Assembly (NCBI GenBank): GCA_025765615.1
Contig: JAIVFJ010000068.1
Location: 231,745 to 295,744 of the forward strand
From: Zopfochytrium polystomum
Taxonomy: Eukaryota > Chytridiomycota > Chytridiomycetes > Chytridiales > Chytridiaceae
Direction of reading: 5' to 3'
Length of the DNA: 64,000 nucleotides
The position numbers were made by a program, and so were the translations under genes. This document shows, piece by piece, positions 2,490-64,000 of the stretch; within the stretch, counting starts at the first letter, position 1; the number at the start of each line of letters is the position of its first letter. Under the pieces are notes generated by a model. That model made no database searches. It worked only from the letters and a program-made list of their open reading frames with translations, and was not told the origin of the DNA.

Positions 2490-5400
2490 ATGCGCTTCCT
2501 TCTATCGAAGGCTCCATCCATTCCTCCAGCCGTTCAAGGACCTGTCCAGTTTTACCTTCGAGTGTCCGTTCCCAAGATTCTATGGACCAACCCACCTTCC
2601 CCAGACCGTCGCGCTCTCTCTCAGCAGCCGTTCCAATCCTCCATCCGGCCGCGCGTAGAATTGTCATGGTGGGGAAGCGCTGACCCTCCCTCCTCCTTCC
2701 ACCCATCCAGCGTGGGCGACAGGCGCACCGTTCTCTCCGAGGGCGCCCGCGTCGCCGACCGCCACACCTTGCGTTTTCCTGTGCGCTGCAACAAGCAAAA
2801 ACTCCACAGTTACCTCACCGACATGGGCCTGCTCGTGCTTCAGATCTTTGCCTACGGACGCTCCTCCCCAGTGGGCATTGCCAAAGTTCCCGATCTTGCC
2901 GTCGTTGCCGCTCTGCCGTACTCTCGTCCGATCAACGGGTGGTTTTCGGTCCTGCGGCCCCCTGACGGGGACGCGAATATTGGTGCGGTCCAGAACGCGA
3001 AACTGAGAGACCTGGGCGAGCTGAACGTGTCTGTTGTACTCGAGCCTGTTCCAACCGTGCGCATCAATGAAGCTGAGATGCAGGACACCCGGTTTGATGA
3101 GCCAACTCACGACGATACCGGAGAAGCAGGGGCCATCAGAAGCGAGCAAAGCGAGGAAAGTCCTCTTGATGCCTACATGACAGAAGACGGCGAAGTCTAC
3201 GTGGTAGAGGACGATGATGCTGCTTCTTTGACTGAAGTAAAAGTACCGAATGCAGTGTCCACTGGCAGACCCGCAGACAGCCTTTCAAGCCCGGACGCAC
3301 CATACAATGGACCTATCGGCTCTTTGGACAACGAAGCAGAAGCAAGACAATCGATGCCGACCGGGGCGGACAGAATGTTCAACGACATTTTCAATCGTGC
3401 ATTGCGACTGCGCTCAGAGATTGACAATGCGTTGTCCAATAACCCAAGCGCCCGAGGTCCAGTTCCACACACTTCCCAAGAAACAGCTGCCAATACCACA
3501 TCGCAGTGGCACAACCCTGTATTTGTCCCCGACTCCTCCAAGATAGACTCTGAACTCGACGGCCTCGAAGATTATGTACTAGCAGTCCACGAGGATGAAC
3601 TCAGTGAGACCTACTCGGATATTTTGTTGGATGATGACCTTGTCATCGAGGCTTTAAACTCGTGTCCGGCTCTGATGCAAGAAGTTGACGCGCCGAGTGG
3701 CACTGCCAACAGAAGAATTGACTTCCGAATAGAGGACGATGACTTTCTGTCGATAACAAACTCAGACGACTGCAACGCAGCAGGACCACAAGCTCTCAAA
3801 AGTTCTCAAACAAATCGGGACGATGGCCCGCCTCTAGACGCCGAAGTATTGACGGCGCTTGGCCGGGTACATTCTATCCGCGTCACCGCGGTGAAACTGG
3901 AATTAAAGACGTTCACGATGAATCGCTCTACCAGCACAATCTTTATTCACTTTGAATCGGACGAGTTTCGCCTCCCGGACCACTGCAACCTCGCATCCGA
4001 CTTTACAGCCAAGTCGACAGTTCGATTATCCCACAACGCAGGAGCAAGAGCCCCTCCACAGCTCTCGAATATGATTGTTATAGACCAAAGTGCAATTTTC
4101 CCAGCCCGTTTCGACGGAAAGGACGTGAGCGATTGGCTGAAGGCAAAAATTGATTTTTCAGTGATTGGATCAGCGGCTGCCGCAGAGGCGAAACTTGTTT
4201 ATGCAGCAAAAGCGAAAACAGTTCAGCCTGTCTTTTCAGCCTTTGGGAGCTGGCGTTGCAAAGAAGTTATTGCGACGCCCGATTTCAATTGGTCGGGTCG
4301 TGTCCCACTATTTGCAGTCGCACCGGCCCCGAAAAATCCTAGAAACGAGTCAGCAAGGGCTCACCGACATGTTGGTGACTTGCTGCTTACAGTGGAGCTT
4401 ATTTCGGTTCAACCGCCGCCTTTCAAAACTTCCTTGAAGGCGGCGGCGCCGCCTGATGAGGATACTCAGCAATCTGGGAGCTCAGAGGTTAAGGTGGAGA
4501 ACGATCCTCCGACCTTAAGTCGACCGCCAAGCATTGGCAAGCAGCCATTTTACTTATTTGTTTCTATAACCACGGTGCGTGGGTTGTCGGTTTACTCTGG
4601 TACCCCAAAACCCTGTACGACACTTCTGAATCTTGTGGTGCGTCTTTTCGCATCCATCAGTCATCCAACATCGACACCTCCCATTCCGTACCTTCCCCCG
4701 GTGGACTTGGTGACTGGTCGCTTGAACAAGCCACTTAACTTCGACTTTGCCCTGACTGTTCCGCTCGCTTTGACCTCATCTCTGCTCCAATCGATTGAGG
4801 ACGCGTCCATTGTCGCGGAGGTTTGGGCAAGTGACATAAGTAGTTCAGTGATGCCCTCTGCGAACGACTCGTCAGATTTAGGTGAACGTACCGGCCAGAG
4901 CTTAACCGAGGCTGCATCGAGACAATCCACCGTTGGAGTAACCTCTCGGCAACCTTTCCTGACTTTTGCCGAGCACGTTGAGGATGGAAAGAGGCTTGTA
5001 GGCTTGCTAAAGCTCCCTTCGGGCCATTTGTTGAAGATTTTAGTGGCAACATGCCTTGGCGAAGACGGCTCTGTGGGCCCTGCGAACATCGAAGCTCCGA
5101 TTTTGATGCCCGAAACCGAATACCCAGTGATCGACCCCTTCACGGGGAGTTCGAAAGGCTGGATAACTGGATTTATGGCGATCGGGTCTTGGGAACAGAT
5201 ACTTTCTATTCGTCGTCCTGAAAAAGCCAATGCAAGCTTTTCATCGTCCGCCCCAATTTCCCGCGTTGGCGACAAAAAGGCCCGAGCTCGATCCAACGAA
5301 AGACAGAAAGCGGAAAAAGCGCTCGAAAAGGGAGCAGCAAATTCCGTCGCAAGAGTACCACCTCGACCGCTTTCTTCCGTTTCTCGTCCTGACGAGGAAA

Positions 5401-11139: not shown

Positions 11140-11440
11140 TGTCAGGAACATGGCAGGACAGGACAAGGCAGACAAGGAACTGAGAGGAGTGATGATTGTA
11201 TTGGAAACAATAATTCACTTGAGGGATGGGACAGGTCCCCCATCCCCCTCTTTTGAGAGTCTTCCTTGTCAAGACCCAAAGAAAGTTCCAGAAAGAGCAA
11301 TTAGTAATACAATGATACCAATGATACCAATGACAACAAGACAAGTCAGGAAAGCAAAGAAGGTTCCAGAAGGTTCCACAAGGTTCCCTGAAGGACTGTT
11401 CTAGAAGGTTCCAGAGGTTTCCAGAGGGTGATTCAAAGCA
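11140..11440 (-). repeat. 3' LTR of the chromovirus
   Basis: About 301 bp, starting TGTCAG and ending GCA on the plus strand. It is nearly identical to the right LTR. It lacks about 10 bp that include the TATA box present in the right copy, so the two LTRs have diverged since insertion. Confidence 0.92.
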
Positions 11441-14621: not shown

Positions 14622-14929
14622 TGTCAGGAACATGGCAGGACAGGGCAAGGCTGACAAGGAACTGAGAGGAGTGATGATTGTATTGGAAACAATAATTCAC
14701 TTGAGGGATGGGACAGGTCCCCCATCCCCCTTTTATACCTTTTGAGAGTCTTCCTTGTCAAGACCCAAAGAAAGTTCCAGAAAGAGCAATTAGTAATACA
14801 ATGATACCAATGATACCAATGACAACAAGACAAGTCAGGAAAGCAAAGAAGGTTCCAGAAGGTTCCACAAGGTTCCCTGAAGGACTGTTCTAGAAGGTTC
14901 CAGAGGTTTCCAGAGGGTGATTCATAACA
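14622..14929 (-). repeat. 5' LTR of the chromovirus, with TATA promoter
   Basis: About 308 bp. On the minus strand it carries TATAAAA (plus 14731-14737) about 30 nt upstream of CAAGTGAATTATTG, the likely transcript start. It ends ATAACA directly before the right copy of AGGAG. Confidence 0.92.
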
Positions 14930-59173: not shown

Positions 59174-60589
<1,416 letters not shown>

Positions 60590-60598
<9 letters not shown>

Positions 60599-60613
60599 TA
60601 GGTTAGGGTTAGG
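60590..60613 (+). repeat. Telomere-type repeats at the HSPA12/LINE junction
   Basis: GGTTAGGGTTAGGTTAGGGTTAGG, a mix of TTAGGG and TTAGG units. The G-rich strand reads rightward, so the chromosome end would lie to the right. Confidence 0.9.
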
Positions 60614-61792
60614 TTCTTGAACTCTGTGAGGCGGCCCTCCTTTGTGGAGTCGCCACTTGTGGTTCCCACAACCAAGGCCTATGACATTGAGTTGCCAGTG
60701 GTGAGAACAAAGAACATTGAGGCTGCAGACATGCTGCTGATGCACAAGCGGGCTCTGGTGAGGTGTCAGCAGAAATCCTCCCCCACAGGGGTGGCTCAGG
60801 CTTTGGAAGTGCCCTCACACATGGGGCCATGCCAAGTTATTCGATCTGGTGCGGCATTTAACAGGAAGTGGCTCAGACACCTGCTGATGTGGATGGCTGG
60901 GATGGTAGCATTTCACCAACAGTGTGCAAGGGCTGGCTGTGCAGAGAAGTGCACTAGGAGGCATGTTTTGGAGTGTTCAGGGGTTAAGGACAGGCTGGAG
61001 AGGCTGCATCCTGAGTTGATTCCCACTGCAGAGCAACAGGATTTGAACATTTCAGCAGTAGATTTGGGCCTAAGGTCGCTGGTCTTTTGGGCCCCCTACA
61101 GTGCCAAAGCTGAGGGCAAGATCTCTAAGGAGACTCGCATTACATCAAAGAAGATGGGAATGAAGCTGGCCAGGATGATCATGCAGATGCGCATTGAGTG
61201 TGGAGGACTTGCGAATTTCACTGATGCTTCAGAGACAACAGCAGCAGAGGAGGCAGAGGTCGTGGTGGAGGCAGGTCGTGTGGACCGACAGGATATGAGC
61301 ATTCAGGAACGGATGGCAGCAGCCAGGGTGCGCAAGCTTGCAAGGTCAGTCATCATCACCACCTACGATCCAGTACGGAACAAACAATGGCGGGAGTCAA
61401 GGGAGAAGTGGAAGAAGAAGGAAACTGAGGGTGTTGAGGGGACAGTGGACGGCAATGGGCATGTGGACTCTGATTCAGAGGAGGAGGCTGGAACTGGGTG
61501 ACAGTTTGTGCAGTGTTTCAGGTGCAGTTCTTCGAACCTCATTTGTTATCTATTTGTTTTCTTGTTGTTTAATTTCATTCACCTCTGTGGATCTTCTCCT
61601 CTCTTTCTTTTCGATCTAGTTGCTGTCCTTTGTTCTTCTCTTCTGCCTTTTGATTCTCTACCTGGCACCTCGTTCTTGCCTCTGGACATGTTTCTCCTAT
61701 TTCATATGTACGCACTTTTTAACTTTCAAAGTTGCAGATTCCTCACCCTCTCCCTCGGGGGCGGGTTGGAGCGAATAAATCCCGTTGAAAAG
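60614..61792 (+). mobile_element. Telomere-associated LINE copy 1 (5'-truncated)
   Basis: Contains the C-terminal 294 codons of a LINE protein ending at 61501, and then a 3' UTR of about 290 bp. It is identical, as far as I can read, to copy 2 but begins about 313 bp later in the unit (at TTCTTGAACTCTG). The protein has a Cys/His cluster (GCAEKCTRRHVLECSG) typical of LINE C-termini, followed by an acidic, coiled tail. Confidence 0.85.
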
Positions 61793-61807
61793 TTAGGGTT
61801 AGGGGGT
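61793..61807 (+). repeat. Telomere-type junction between LINE copies 1 and 2
   Basis: GTTAGGGTTAGGGGG directly joins the 3' end of copy 1 to the truncated 5' end of copy 2. Confidence 0.9.
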
Positions 61808-63297
61808 TCGCACTGCGCCCCCTGACTCACACACAGCTGAAGGATGCGCAGAAGTTGCAGGACAAGTGCCTGCGGCAGGCGCTGTCACTGGGGAAGACCT
61901 CCTCAGGGGCGGCCCTGCATCTGATGTTTGGAGTGGTCCCTGTGGCAGCCAGGAACAGGATGCTGAACGCCAGATACTTTTTCAGACTGCACCACATTCA
62001 GGATGCTCGCAACACAACGGCTCAGATGTACAGGCACATGGTGGAAAAGATTGCTTCAGGGGCCTCTGTGGGACAGTCCTTGACAAAGTTTTCGCTTGAC
62101 TATACGGATATTCAGTATTTCTTGAACTCTGTGAGGCGGCCCTCCTTTGTGGAGTCGCCACTTGTGGTTCCCACAACCAAGGCCTATGACATTGAGTTGC
62201 CAGTGGTGAGAACAAAGAACATTGAGGCTGCAGACATGCTGCTGATGCACAAGCGGGCTCTGGTGAGGTGTCAGCAGAAATCCTCCCCCACAGGGGTGGC
62301 TCAGGCTTTGGAAGTGCCCTCACACATGGGGCCATGCCAAGTTATTCGATCTGGTGCGGCATTTAACAGGAAGTGGCTCAGACACCTGCTGATGTGGATG
62401 GCTGGGATGGTAGCATTTCACCAACAGTGTGCAAGGGCTGGCTGTGCAGAGAAGTGCACTAGGAGGCATGTTTTGGAGTGTTCAGGGGTTAAGGACAGGC
62501 TGGAGAGGCTGCATCCTGAGTTGATTCCCACTGCAGAGCAACAGGATTTGAACATTTCAGCAGTAGATTTGGGCCTAAGGTCGCTGGTCTTTTGGGCCCC
62601 CTACAGTGCCAAAGCTGAGGGCAAGATCTCTAAGGAGACTCGCATTACATCAAAGAAGATGGGAATGAAGCTGGCCAGGATGATCATGCAGATGCGCATT
62701 GAGTGTGGAGGACTTGCGAATTTCACTGATGCTTCAGAGACAACAGCAGCAGAGGAGGCAGAGGTCGTGGTGGAGGCAGGTCGTGTGGACCGACAGGATA
62801 TGAGCATTCAGGAACGGATGGCAGCAGCCAGGGTGCGCAAGCTTGCAAGGTCAGTCATCATCACCACCTACGATCCAGTACGGAACAAACAATGGCGGGA
62901 GTCAAGGGAGAAGTGGAAGAAGAAGGAAACTGAGGGTGTTGAGGGGACAGTGGACGGCAATGGGCATGTGGACTCTGATTCAGAGGAGGAGGCTGGAACT
63001 GGGTGACAGTTTGTGCAGTGTTTCAGGTGCAGTTCTTCGAACCTCATTTGTTATCTATTTGTTTTCTTGTTGTTTAATTTCATTCACCTCTGTGGATCTT
63101 CTCCTCTCTTTCTTTTCGATCTAGTTGCTGTCCTTTGTTCTTCTCTTCTGCCTTTTGATTCTCTACCTGGCACCTCGTTCTTGCCTCTGGACATGTTTCT
63201 CCTATTTCATATGTACGCACTTTTTAACTTTCAAAGTTGCAGATTCCTCACCCTCTCCCTCGGGGGCGGGTTGGAGCGAATAAATCCCGTTGAAAAG
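61808..63297 (+). mobile_element. Telomere-associated LINE copy 2
   Basis: A 1505-bp unit including its junction. The frame is open from the telomere repeat to the stop at 63006 with no start ATG: the sequence begins inside the protein, downstream of the RT catalytic core. The first visible part, LQDKCLRQALSLGKTSSGAA followed by LMFGVVPVAARNRML, is the region seen after the RT thumb in many LINEs. The Cys/His cluster and an acidic tail (DSDSEEEAGTG) follow. The catalytic RT motifs are not in the unit, so movement would need a full-length copy elsewhere. Confidence 0.85.
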
Positions 63298-63312
63298 TTA
63301 GGGTTAGGGGGT
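63298..63312 (+). repeat. Telomere-type junction between LINE copies 2 and 3
   Basis: Identical GTTAGGGTTAGGGGG, exactly 1505 bp after the previous junction. Confidence 0.9.
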
Positions 63313-64000
63313 TCGCACTGCGCCCCCTGACTCACACACAGCTGAAGGATGCGCAGAAGTTGCAGGACAAGTGCCTGCGGCAGGCGCTGTCACTGGGGAA
63401 GACCTCCTCAGGGGCGGCCCTGCATCTGATGTTTGGAGTGGTCCCTGTGGCAGCCAGGAACAGGATGCTGAACGCCAGATACTTTTTCAGACTGCACCAC
63501 ATTCAGGATGCTCGCAACACAACGGCTCAGATGTACAGGCACATGGTGGAAAAGATTGCTTCAGGGGCCTCTGTGGGACAGTCCTTGACAAAGTTTTCGC
63601 TTGACTATACGGATATTCAGTATTTCTTGAACTCTGTGAGGCGGCCCTCCTTTGTGGAGTCGCCACTTGTGGTTCCCACAACCAAGGCCTATGACATTGA
63701 GTTGCCAGTGGTGAGAACAAAGAACATTGAGGCTGCAGACATGCTGCTGATGCACAAGCGGGCTCTGGTGAGGTGTCAGCAGAAATCCTCCCCCACAGGG
63801 GTGGCTCAGGCTTTGGAAGTGCCCTCACACATGGGGCCATGCCAAGTTATTCGATCTGGTGCGGCATTTAACAGGAAGTGGCTCAGACACCTGCTGATGT
63901 GGATGGCTGGGATGGTAGCATTTCACCAACAGTGTGCAAGGGCTGGCTGTGCAGAGAAGTGCACTAGGAGGCATGTTTTGGAGTGTCAGGGGTTAAGGAC
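63313..64000 (+). mobile_element. Telomere-associated LINE copy 3 (cut by the window edge)
   Basis: Matches copy 2 from its first base. One difference is seen near 63986 (GAGTGTCAGG against GAGTGTTCAGG), a 1-nt deletion that would shift the frame. The rest lies outside the window. Confidence 0.85.

Follow-up and report, generated by a model that had tools for sequence, protein, structure and literature searches.

Probable telomere-repeat-specific LINEs with an APE-type endonuclease in head-to-tail arrays at contig ends of the chytrid Zopfochytrium polystomum

This study concerns truncated copies of a long interspersed nuclear element (LINE) at the end of a 64,000-nt stretch of DNA from the chytrid Zopfochytrium polystomum (the window; positions 231745-295744 of contig JAIVFJ010000068.1, called C68 here), which we compare with retroelements described from other chromosome ends. 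The endonuclease (EN) of the silkworm element SART1 is of the apurinic/apyrimidinic endonuclease (APE) type. In elements of the MoTeR/FoTeR/CRE type, a restriction-like endonuclease follows the reverse transcriptase (RT) in a single open reading frame (ORF). Elements of the HeT-A/TART type have a proximal 3′ end and are attached at the chromosome end without an endonuclease, and Coprina is an endonuclease-deficient telomeric Penelope-like element. In Bombyx mori, EN and RT of SART1 are encoded by ORF2, with ORF1 separate, and only full-length SART and TRAS copies were found at telomeres (PMC4700185). SART1 inserts in the TTAGG strand, where at least three repeats are needed and the first two are not used; it cuts between TT and AGG, requires a long poly(A) tail and, within 21 repeats, mostly used the 15th and 17th, and an upstream 12 bp of repeat was suggested to be important (PMC7265360). 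MoTeR elements of Pyricularia form head-to-tail arrays in which MoTeR1 and MoTeR2 can occur together, the RT of MoTeR1 probably serving MoTeR2 as well; their 5′ ends lie nearest the chromosome end, and their spacers can be as short as half a repeat or exceed 20 repeats (PMC7367193). FoTeR of Fusarium typically has 3-7 repeats at its 3′ side (PMC12857005), and the restriction-like endonuclease elements MoTeR and FoTeR share a clade with Cnl1, SLACS and CRE (PMC7367193, PMC12857005). Nested clusters of the LINE Zepp in Coccomyxa/Chlorella were earlier reported at termini, most clusters being chromosome-internal, about one per chromosome (PMC3446292), and Athena is a telomere-associated Penelope-like element (PMC10088271). 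A literature search on telomeric LINEs, fungi and chytrids, covering the top-ranked open-licence papers in PubMed Central and run without "APE" as a search term, returned no chytrid or APE-type fungal telomeric LINE.

In the Z. polystomum assembly (80.16 Mb, 761 contigs), contig C68 is 295744 bases long, so its end is also the end of the window. Three LINE copies, all 5′-truncated, follow one another head-to-tail at this terminus; they are separated by GTTAGGGTTAGG and have 23 nt of telomere repeat in front. We consider it highly probable that these copies represent one family (family A) of a telomere-repeat-specific LINE with an APE-type endonuclease, which in this chytrid duplicates a 12-bp site with each insertion. 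As the initial annotation had noted, at least three copies of one truncated LINE are spaced at exactly 1505 bp: this distance separates successive 3′ ends (61791, 63296) and likewise the 5′ ends of the second and third copies (61804, 63309). The order it described, from a 3′ end through telomere sequence into the next copy, is also correct, but the spacer comprises only the 12 nt of GTTAGGGTTAGG, and any Gs after it are part of the copy that follows. The overlapping parts of the three copies are identical, apart from 8 mismatches within the contig's final 14 bases.

Across the assembly, exact 3′ ends of family A and of a second family, B, were found 160 times (97 + 63), and 133 of these (82 + 51) continue into the 11-nt stub GTTAGGGTTAG. 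The reversed control pattern gave 0 matches vs. 133, which places the combination of 3′ end and stub far above chance. The junction that the initial annotation proposed to look for at other chromosome ends is thus present 133 times genome-wide, and on 40 contigs among the first 100 tails listed. Homology to the LINE, or to a short interspersed nuclear element (SINE) treated below, begins at nt 13 in 15 of 41 junction rows, corresponding to 14 places (L031 and L048 are one place); the reference used for row L012:3002 had been taken from that row's own sequence. The remaining rows show unplaced sequence, SINE heads, full-length 5′ ends or a start shifted by a base or a few. For elements with an intact 3′ end plus an upstream stub, the upstream and downstream 12-mers were identical in 19 cases out of 19, and a variant 12th base is found on both sides of the element on C429 (GTTAGGGTTAGA, A/A) and on C201 (GTTAGGGTTAGC, C/C). 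Shuffled 3′ stubs equalled this matching in 290 of 100,000 shuffles, a test that rests on the 12th base, with the first 11 bases fixed by the stub search. Left out of it were L020 (the place of L009), L016, loci shorter than 300 bases and inner stretches shorter than 100 nt. As judged from these sequences, the 12-nt stub is a 12-bp target-site duplication and the LINEs would target two telomere repeats.

The edges of the arrays are less regular. Proximal remnants with a non-LINE upstream neighbour (four cases) measure 23 nt on C68, 27 on C396, 15 on C429 and 12 on C16, and all four end in GTTAGGGTTAG plus G or A; distal remnants measure 16 nt (C44) and 18 nt (C190). On C190, one exact TTGAAAAG end enters a third repeat, with 18 nt of repeat altogether, and is followed by a Penelope-like element. 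Variable edges and fixed interiors would follow if each stub produced by duplication could in turn serve as a target. The insertion junction lies between GG and GTTAGG, and the 3′ end of the element is fixed as GAAAA. At L012:2757-2800 and on the minus strand of L028 (4378), a stub is immediately followed by a LINE B 3′ end in inverted orientation, an arrangement like that of twin priming; some of the telomeric tail (CCCTAG) belongs to this inverted end, which suggests that the RNA reads through into the repeat.

In the mechanism that we propose, the endonuclease would recognise two telomere repeats, with one nick at the left edge of the 12 bp, in the C-rich strand, and another at the right edge, in the G-rich strand. 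The 3′-OH of the C-strand would prime reverse transcription from ...GAAAA, a step assisted by base pairing to RNA that has read through into telomere repeat, and copies would often be 5′-truncated. Since each insertion duplicates its target, fresh sites would flank every element and arrays would extend head-to-tail with 12-bp spacers fixed, while lengths other than 12 bp would persist at the array edges only. The fixed duplication provides a concrete rule of array growth and a readable target sequence.

A full-length family A copy on C253 starts with GGGGACTTTTT, contains an ORF1 frame of 680 amino acids (aa) and an ORF2 frame of 1274 aa, and ends in ...AATAAATCCCGTTGAAAA. Searches of the own genome with the LINE, in which only the best candidates were scored, gave at least 45 matches for DNA and at least 105 for protein; 31 of the 105 listed protein matches (13 A, 18 B) lie in frames of 1257-1297 aa, one A frame having a stop within the match. 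Family B, 52-54% identical to family A across the C-terminal 400 aa, has an ORF2 that matches RVT_1 (Pfam, 5.8e-26). Alignment A1 joins family B to three relatives that are 32-36% identical; all four members match RVT_1, Exo_endo_phos_2 (best 1.1e-8) and Exo_endo_phos. EN precedes RT in ORF2, and ORF1 is separate. Full-length, RT-bearing copies, as looked for by the initial annotation, are therefore present in the genome, but with an APE-type endonuclease instead of the suggested CRE/R2-type restriction-like one. The Cys/His cluster reported for the encoded C-terminus was recovered near the end of ORF2, where C1066, C1069, H1077 and C1081 are invariant in the four A1 members. The best PDB matches were 8c8j (described only as "RNA-directed DNA polymerase", 1.2e-20) and L1 ORF2p (2.8e-20), with R2 behind (4.8e-14).

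To this, the C-terminal 400 codons of 30 family A loci add 29 gap-free alignments, 28 of them without a stop and 17 distinct. The ratio of nonsynonymous to synonymous differences (pN/pS) among the 17 distinct copies was 0.13, vs. 1.7 and 1.9 in the two wrong frames, and by this measure family A ORF2 is under purifying selection. The whole family B ORF2 has 93 relatives; the best named one is a Z. polystomum predicted protein containing parts of this LINE, with Cladochytrium tenue next. Parts of the Z. polystomum protein map to contig C252 with 84-98% identity. No relatives were found with the N-terminal piece of family A ORF2 as sole query, and viral contigs yielded no relative. On the strength of their predicted proteins we class the elements as APE-type endonuclease LINEs with two putatively autonomous families, A and B, and a third, C. 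Family C has the insertion site and the 12-bp duplication in common with A and B. The longest forward frames in its copies of 1371 and 1605 bp are 222 and 308 aa, the 308-aa frame gave no Pfam hit, and the family is probably non-autonomous.

The location of the elements was determined for the first 100 listed of the 133 tails, 74 of them on contigs measuring 100 kb or more and 26 on shorter ones. Within 20 kb of the ends of the longer contigs, 43 tails point outward vs. 2 inward (20 vs. 2 contig ends), the LINE 3′ ends being distal, that is, facing the chromosome end. The terminal position on many contigs and the stub duplications bear out the earlier proposal that these LINEs insert into telomere repeats at chromosome ends. 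On C20, a family B element cut within the C-terminal coding region is capped directly by telomere repeat. Exons of TERT were identified on C88, with two matches above the cut-off. Larger tandem duplications, of about 11.18 kb on C253 and 16.25 kb on C44, indicate that recombination reshapes chromosome ends too.

Several further observations were made at contig ends. The sequence (TTAGGG)3 occurs 336 times on the plus strand vs. 2 times on the minus strand of the assembly, so that left-hand contig ends are almost without telomere tracts; this scarcity is perhaps an effect of assembly or trimming. At C16:470-494 kb (L012, L028, L046), two outward LINE arrays face each other with a Penelope-like element between them, a possible end-to-end chromosome fusion or assembly misjoin. 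The end of C56 (L016, 5312-6499, minus strand) contains a D5-like primase/helicase frame (D5_N 3.7e-9, DUF5906 1.3e-6) in AT-rich sequence near a degenerate telomere tract, and six tRNA genes lie less than 7 kb from the end of C15 (L011), which bears a telomere tract.

The layout of the C68 terminus is given in Table 1. Two homologues of its Hsp70-like gene, on C146 and C233, are 96% identical and continue beyond the break point without telomere repeat, which shows that the C68 gene copy was interrupted by the repeat. Copies 2 and 3 of the LINE share one truncation point, for which reason a subsequent tandem duplication most likely produced the exact 1505-bp repeat, the number of 1505-bp copies being provisional. 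The base at the sixth position of these copies is found also in 6 of 31 family A matches elsewhere; it is not private to them, and the duplication is thus argued from the shared truncation point only. The initial annotation had left the choice between amplification by insertion and by recombination: repeated insertion fits most of the array architecture, whereas the 1505-bp repeat fits tandem duplication better. The history of this end may have run from a break in the Hsp70-like gene, through the gain of a short telomere and LINE insertions, to the duplication of one 1505-bp unit by recombination.

Table 1. Features at the C68 terminus (window positions).
Feature	Position	Strand	Basis or remark
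Hsp70-like gene, 3′ side broken off by telomere repeat	59174..60590	+	Pfam HSP70 3.1e-5 at 60216-60503; start codon read by eye
Telomere remnant, 23 nt, proximal edge of array	60591..60613	+	Sequence; final 12 nt = GTTAGGGTTAGG
LINE copy 1, family A, 1178 bp	60614..61791	+	Truncation = position 4853 of full-length C253 copy
ORF2 C-terminus in copy 1	60614-61501	+	
AATAAA near 3′ end of copy 1	61774..61779	+	Equivalent motif in copy 2 at 63279-63284
12-bp stub GTTAGGGTTAGG between copies 1 and 2	61792..61803	+	Putative target-site duplication
LINE copy 2, family A, 1493 bp	61804..63296	+	Truncation = position 4538 of C253 copy
ORF2 C-terminal 400 aa in copy 2	61804-63003	+	Stop 63004-63006
Cys/His cluster, ORF2 C-terminus of copy 2	62428..62481	+	Translation and alignment
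12-bp stub GTTAGGGTTAGG between copies 2 and 3	63297..63308	+	
LINE copy 3, cut by end of contig C68	63309..64000	+	Truncation point as in copy 2

An old LINE 3′ untranslated region piece, 80% identical, lies downstream of the uninterrupted Hsp70-like genes on C146 and C233 (L050, L051). On the minus strand of L021 (C396), a kinase-like gene, recognised by eye, gives way to 27 nt of telomere repeat followed by a LINE array, resembling C68; copies of this gene occur elsewhere, mostly 87-95% identical. One degenerate AGAAGGTTCC repeat is present twice in the window, at 11358-11429 and 14847-14918, 3489 bp apart.

Two other types of element accompany the LINEs. The first is a tRNA-headed SINE of about 410 nt, located at the 5′ end of LINE fragments and with at least 43 matches genome-wide (e.g., L024:3007-3416). 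For this module, as found at truncated 5′ ends, no Rfam family was matched at the gathering score, and ARAGORN predicted no tRNA in five of its loci. Its constant 3′ end CTAGGTACG is attached to the LINE at varying positions; exact placement succeeded for 5 of 11 rows (4 distinct joins), and a one-G overlap is present in all five. These joins are best explained by template jumping. Among 34 SINE rows tested (of at least 43), 11 begin within 20 nt of an A/B tail (72 typed tails of the 100 listed), and no exact match was obtained for the SINE 3′ end followed by TTAGGG. Downstream of three SINE copies (C56, C80 and C277; 87-93% identical), the stretch read contains no LINE A or B.

The second companion, at the end of C63 (L017:1427-4195, minus strand), consists of 1283-bp direct repeats, 99.5% identical, around one frame. 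This frame matches RVT_1 weakly (0.0039, sub-threshold) and has 64 relatives, including one with a GIY-YIG domain and one from the rotifer Adineta; no endonuclease domain was found in the element itself. We named it Penelope-like from these relatives and from its RYIDDLF motif, which we take to be a mark of such elements. Penelope-like pieces are present on C14, C16, C44 and C190, and at right-hand ends their sense strand is directed inward, opposite to the LINEs. On C44, two B tails have an identical downstream junction to the Penelope-like element, and the A tail at the contig end shows those junction letters too.

We weighed three other explanations of the arrays. The LINE RNA itself could carry the stub at its 3′ end, with arrays arising as the RT jumps end-to-end between RNAs. 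The LINE-LINE junctions are indeed blunt and at a fixed position (the 15 nt-13 rows), the presence of CTAGGTACG on varied LINE positions indicates that the RT evidently jumps between RNAs, and template jumping of the R2 RT is established in vitro (PMC8857657). Yet the two pairs of variant stubs match across both sides of their own insertion, the repeat register is retained in 4 of 4 cases with a non-LINE upstream neighbour, and the one-G overlap of the placed SINE-LINE joins is met by no overlap in the nt-13 rows, which together make this origin improbable. On the ground of the variant stubs, template-jump concatemers were set aside as the principal explanation; they are retained as an alternative, and to account for the SINE-LINE joins. 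That the array is no more than an artefact of assembly, or else a satellite lying inside the chromosome, we regard as very unlikely: contig-end position, three identical copies and the internal location of some arrays would agree with this, but one junction type with differing truncation points on 40 contigs (first 100 listed tails), full-length reading frames, purifying selection, the outward bias at contig ends, and the entry of C20 and C190 into real telomere tracts would not. Finally, ordinary LINEs might accumulate passively or be end-joined at broken ends, with repeats added by telomerase. A gene is interrupted at the C68 array edge and apparently another at C396, telomerase is present, and the C20 telomere sits directly on a broken LINE; end-joining, however, would be expected to give neither 12-bp duplications with matched variants nor the head-to-tail order of the arrays read, and we find this explanation scarcely credible.

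Insertion of APE-type LINEs into telomere repeats with a 12-bp duplication is the reading we prefer, and some results count against it. An exact 11-nt stub is missing from 27 of the 160 exact 3′ ends. Variants occur in only 2 of 19 duplications, where the 12th base alone was free to vary, and the variant tails in L029, L038 and L049, for which the loci read include no upstream stub, fall outside the pair test. The EN match of family B (Exo_endo_phos, 1.3e-4, 22.3 bits) is slightly under the Pfam cut-off of 24.5, and that of family A was recognised by eye only. With a 40-kb limit, 46 listed tails point outward vs. 8 inward; 29 of the 74 lie more than 20 kb from a contig end, some of them mid-contig (C102, C52, C55, C16). 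At none of the loci read does an intact LINE 3′ end directly precede a long telomere tract: on C190 and C44, 16-18 nt of repeat are followed by a Penelope-like element, and on C20 the telomere caps a broken element.

More speculatively, and with considerable doubt, the chytrid chromosome end can be pictured as layered, with telomerase repeats, self-perpetuating arrays of APE-type LINEs, a further family on the same site, chimeras of tRNA-SINE and LINE, and a Penelope-like element in opposite orientation; by inserting beside newly capped breaks, LINEs might then help to rescue broken chromosomes and not be parasites only. With telomerase, LINEs and a Penelope-like element coexisting, the chytrid is a natural setting in which to test how chromosome ends are divided between telomerase and retrotransposons.

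Compared with described systems, the chytrid LINE stands apart from MoTeR, to which the initial annotation had likened it. Both MoTeR and FoTeR are fungal telomeric non-LTR (long terminal repeat) elements, and MoTeR also forms head-to-tail arrays. The chytrid LINE, however, has an Exo_endo_phos-type EN before the RT and a separate ORF1, its 3′ end faces outward and its spacer is fixed at 12 bp, so the MoTeR-like designation was abandoned. Nested LINE clusters are shared with Zepp, for which no telomere-repeat duplication was noted in the cited text. Penelope-like elements of the Athena type are likewise telomere-associated retroelements, but they belong to another RT family, no EN domain was found, and their orientation is opposite. 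The HeT-A/TART type differs from the chytrid LINE, in which the 3′ end is distal and an EN domain is present. By way of working, the closest system is SART1, with its APE-type EN, its orientation in the TTAGG strand and its requirement of three or more repeats, the first two staying free of insertions; yet it is not the same element: both have an APE-type EN and RT in ORF2 and a separate ORF1, whereas the junction between GG and GTTAGG, the fixed GAAAA end, the fixed two-repeat spacers, the common occurrence of truncated copies and the fungal host distinguish the chytrid LINE. While the fungal MoTeR and FoTeR use a restriction-like endonuclease, the chytrid LINE uses the APE type known from silkworm SART/TRAS, which suggests that telomere targeting either arose independently or goes back much further.

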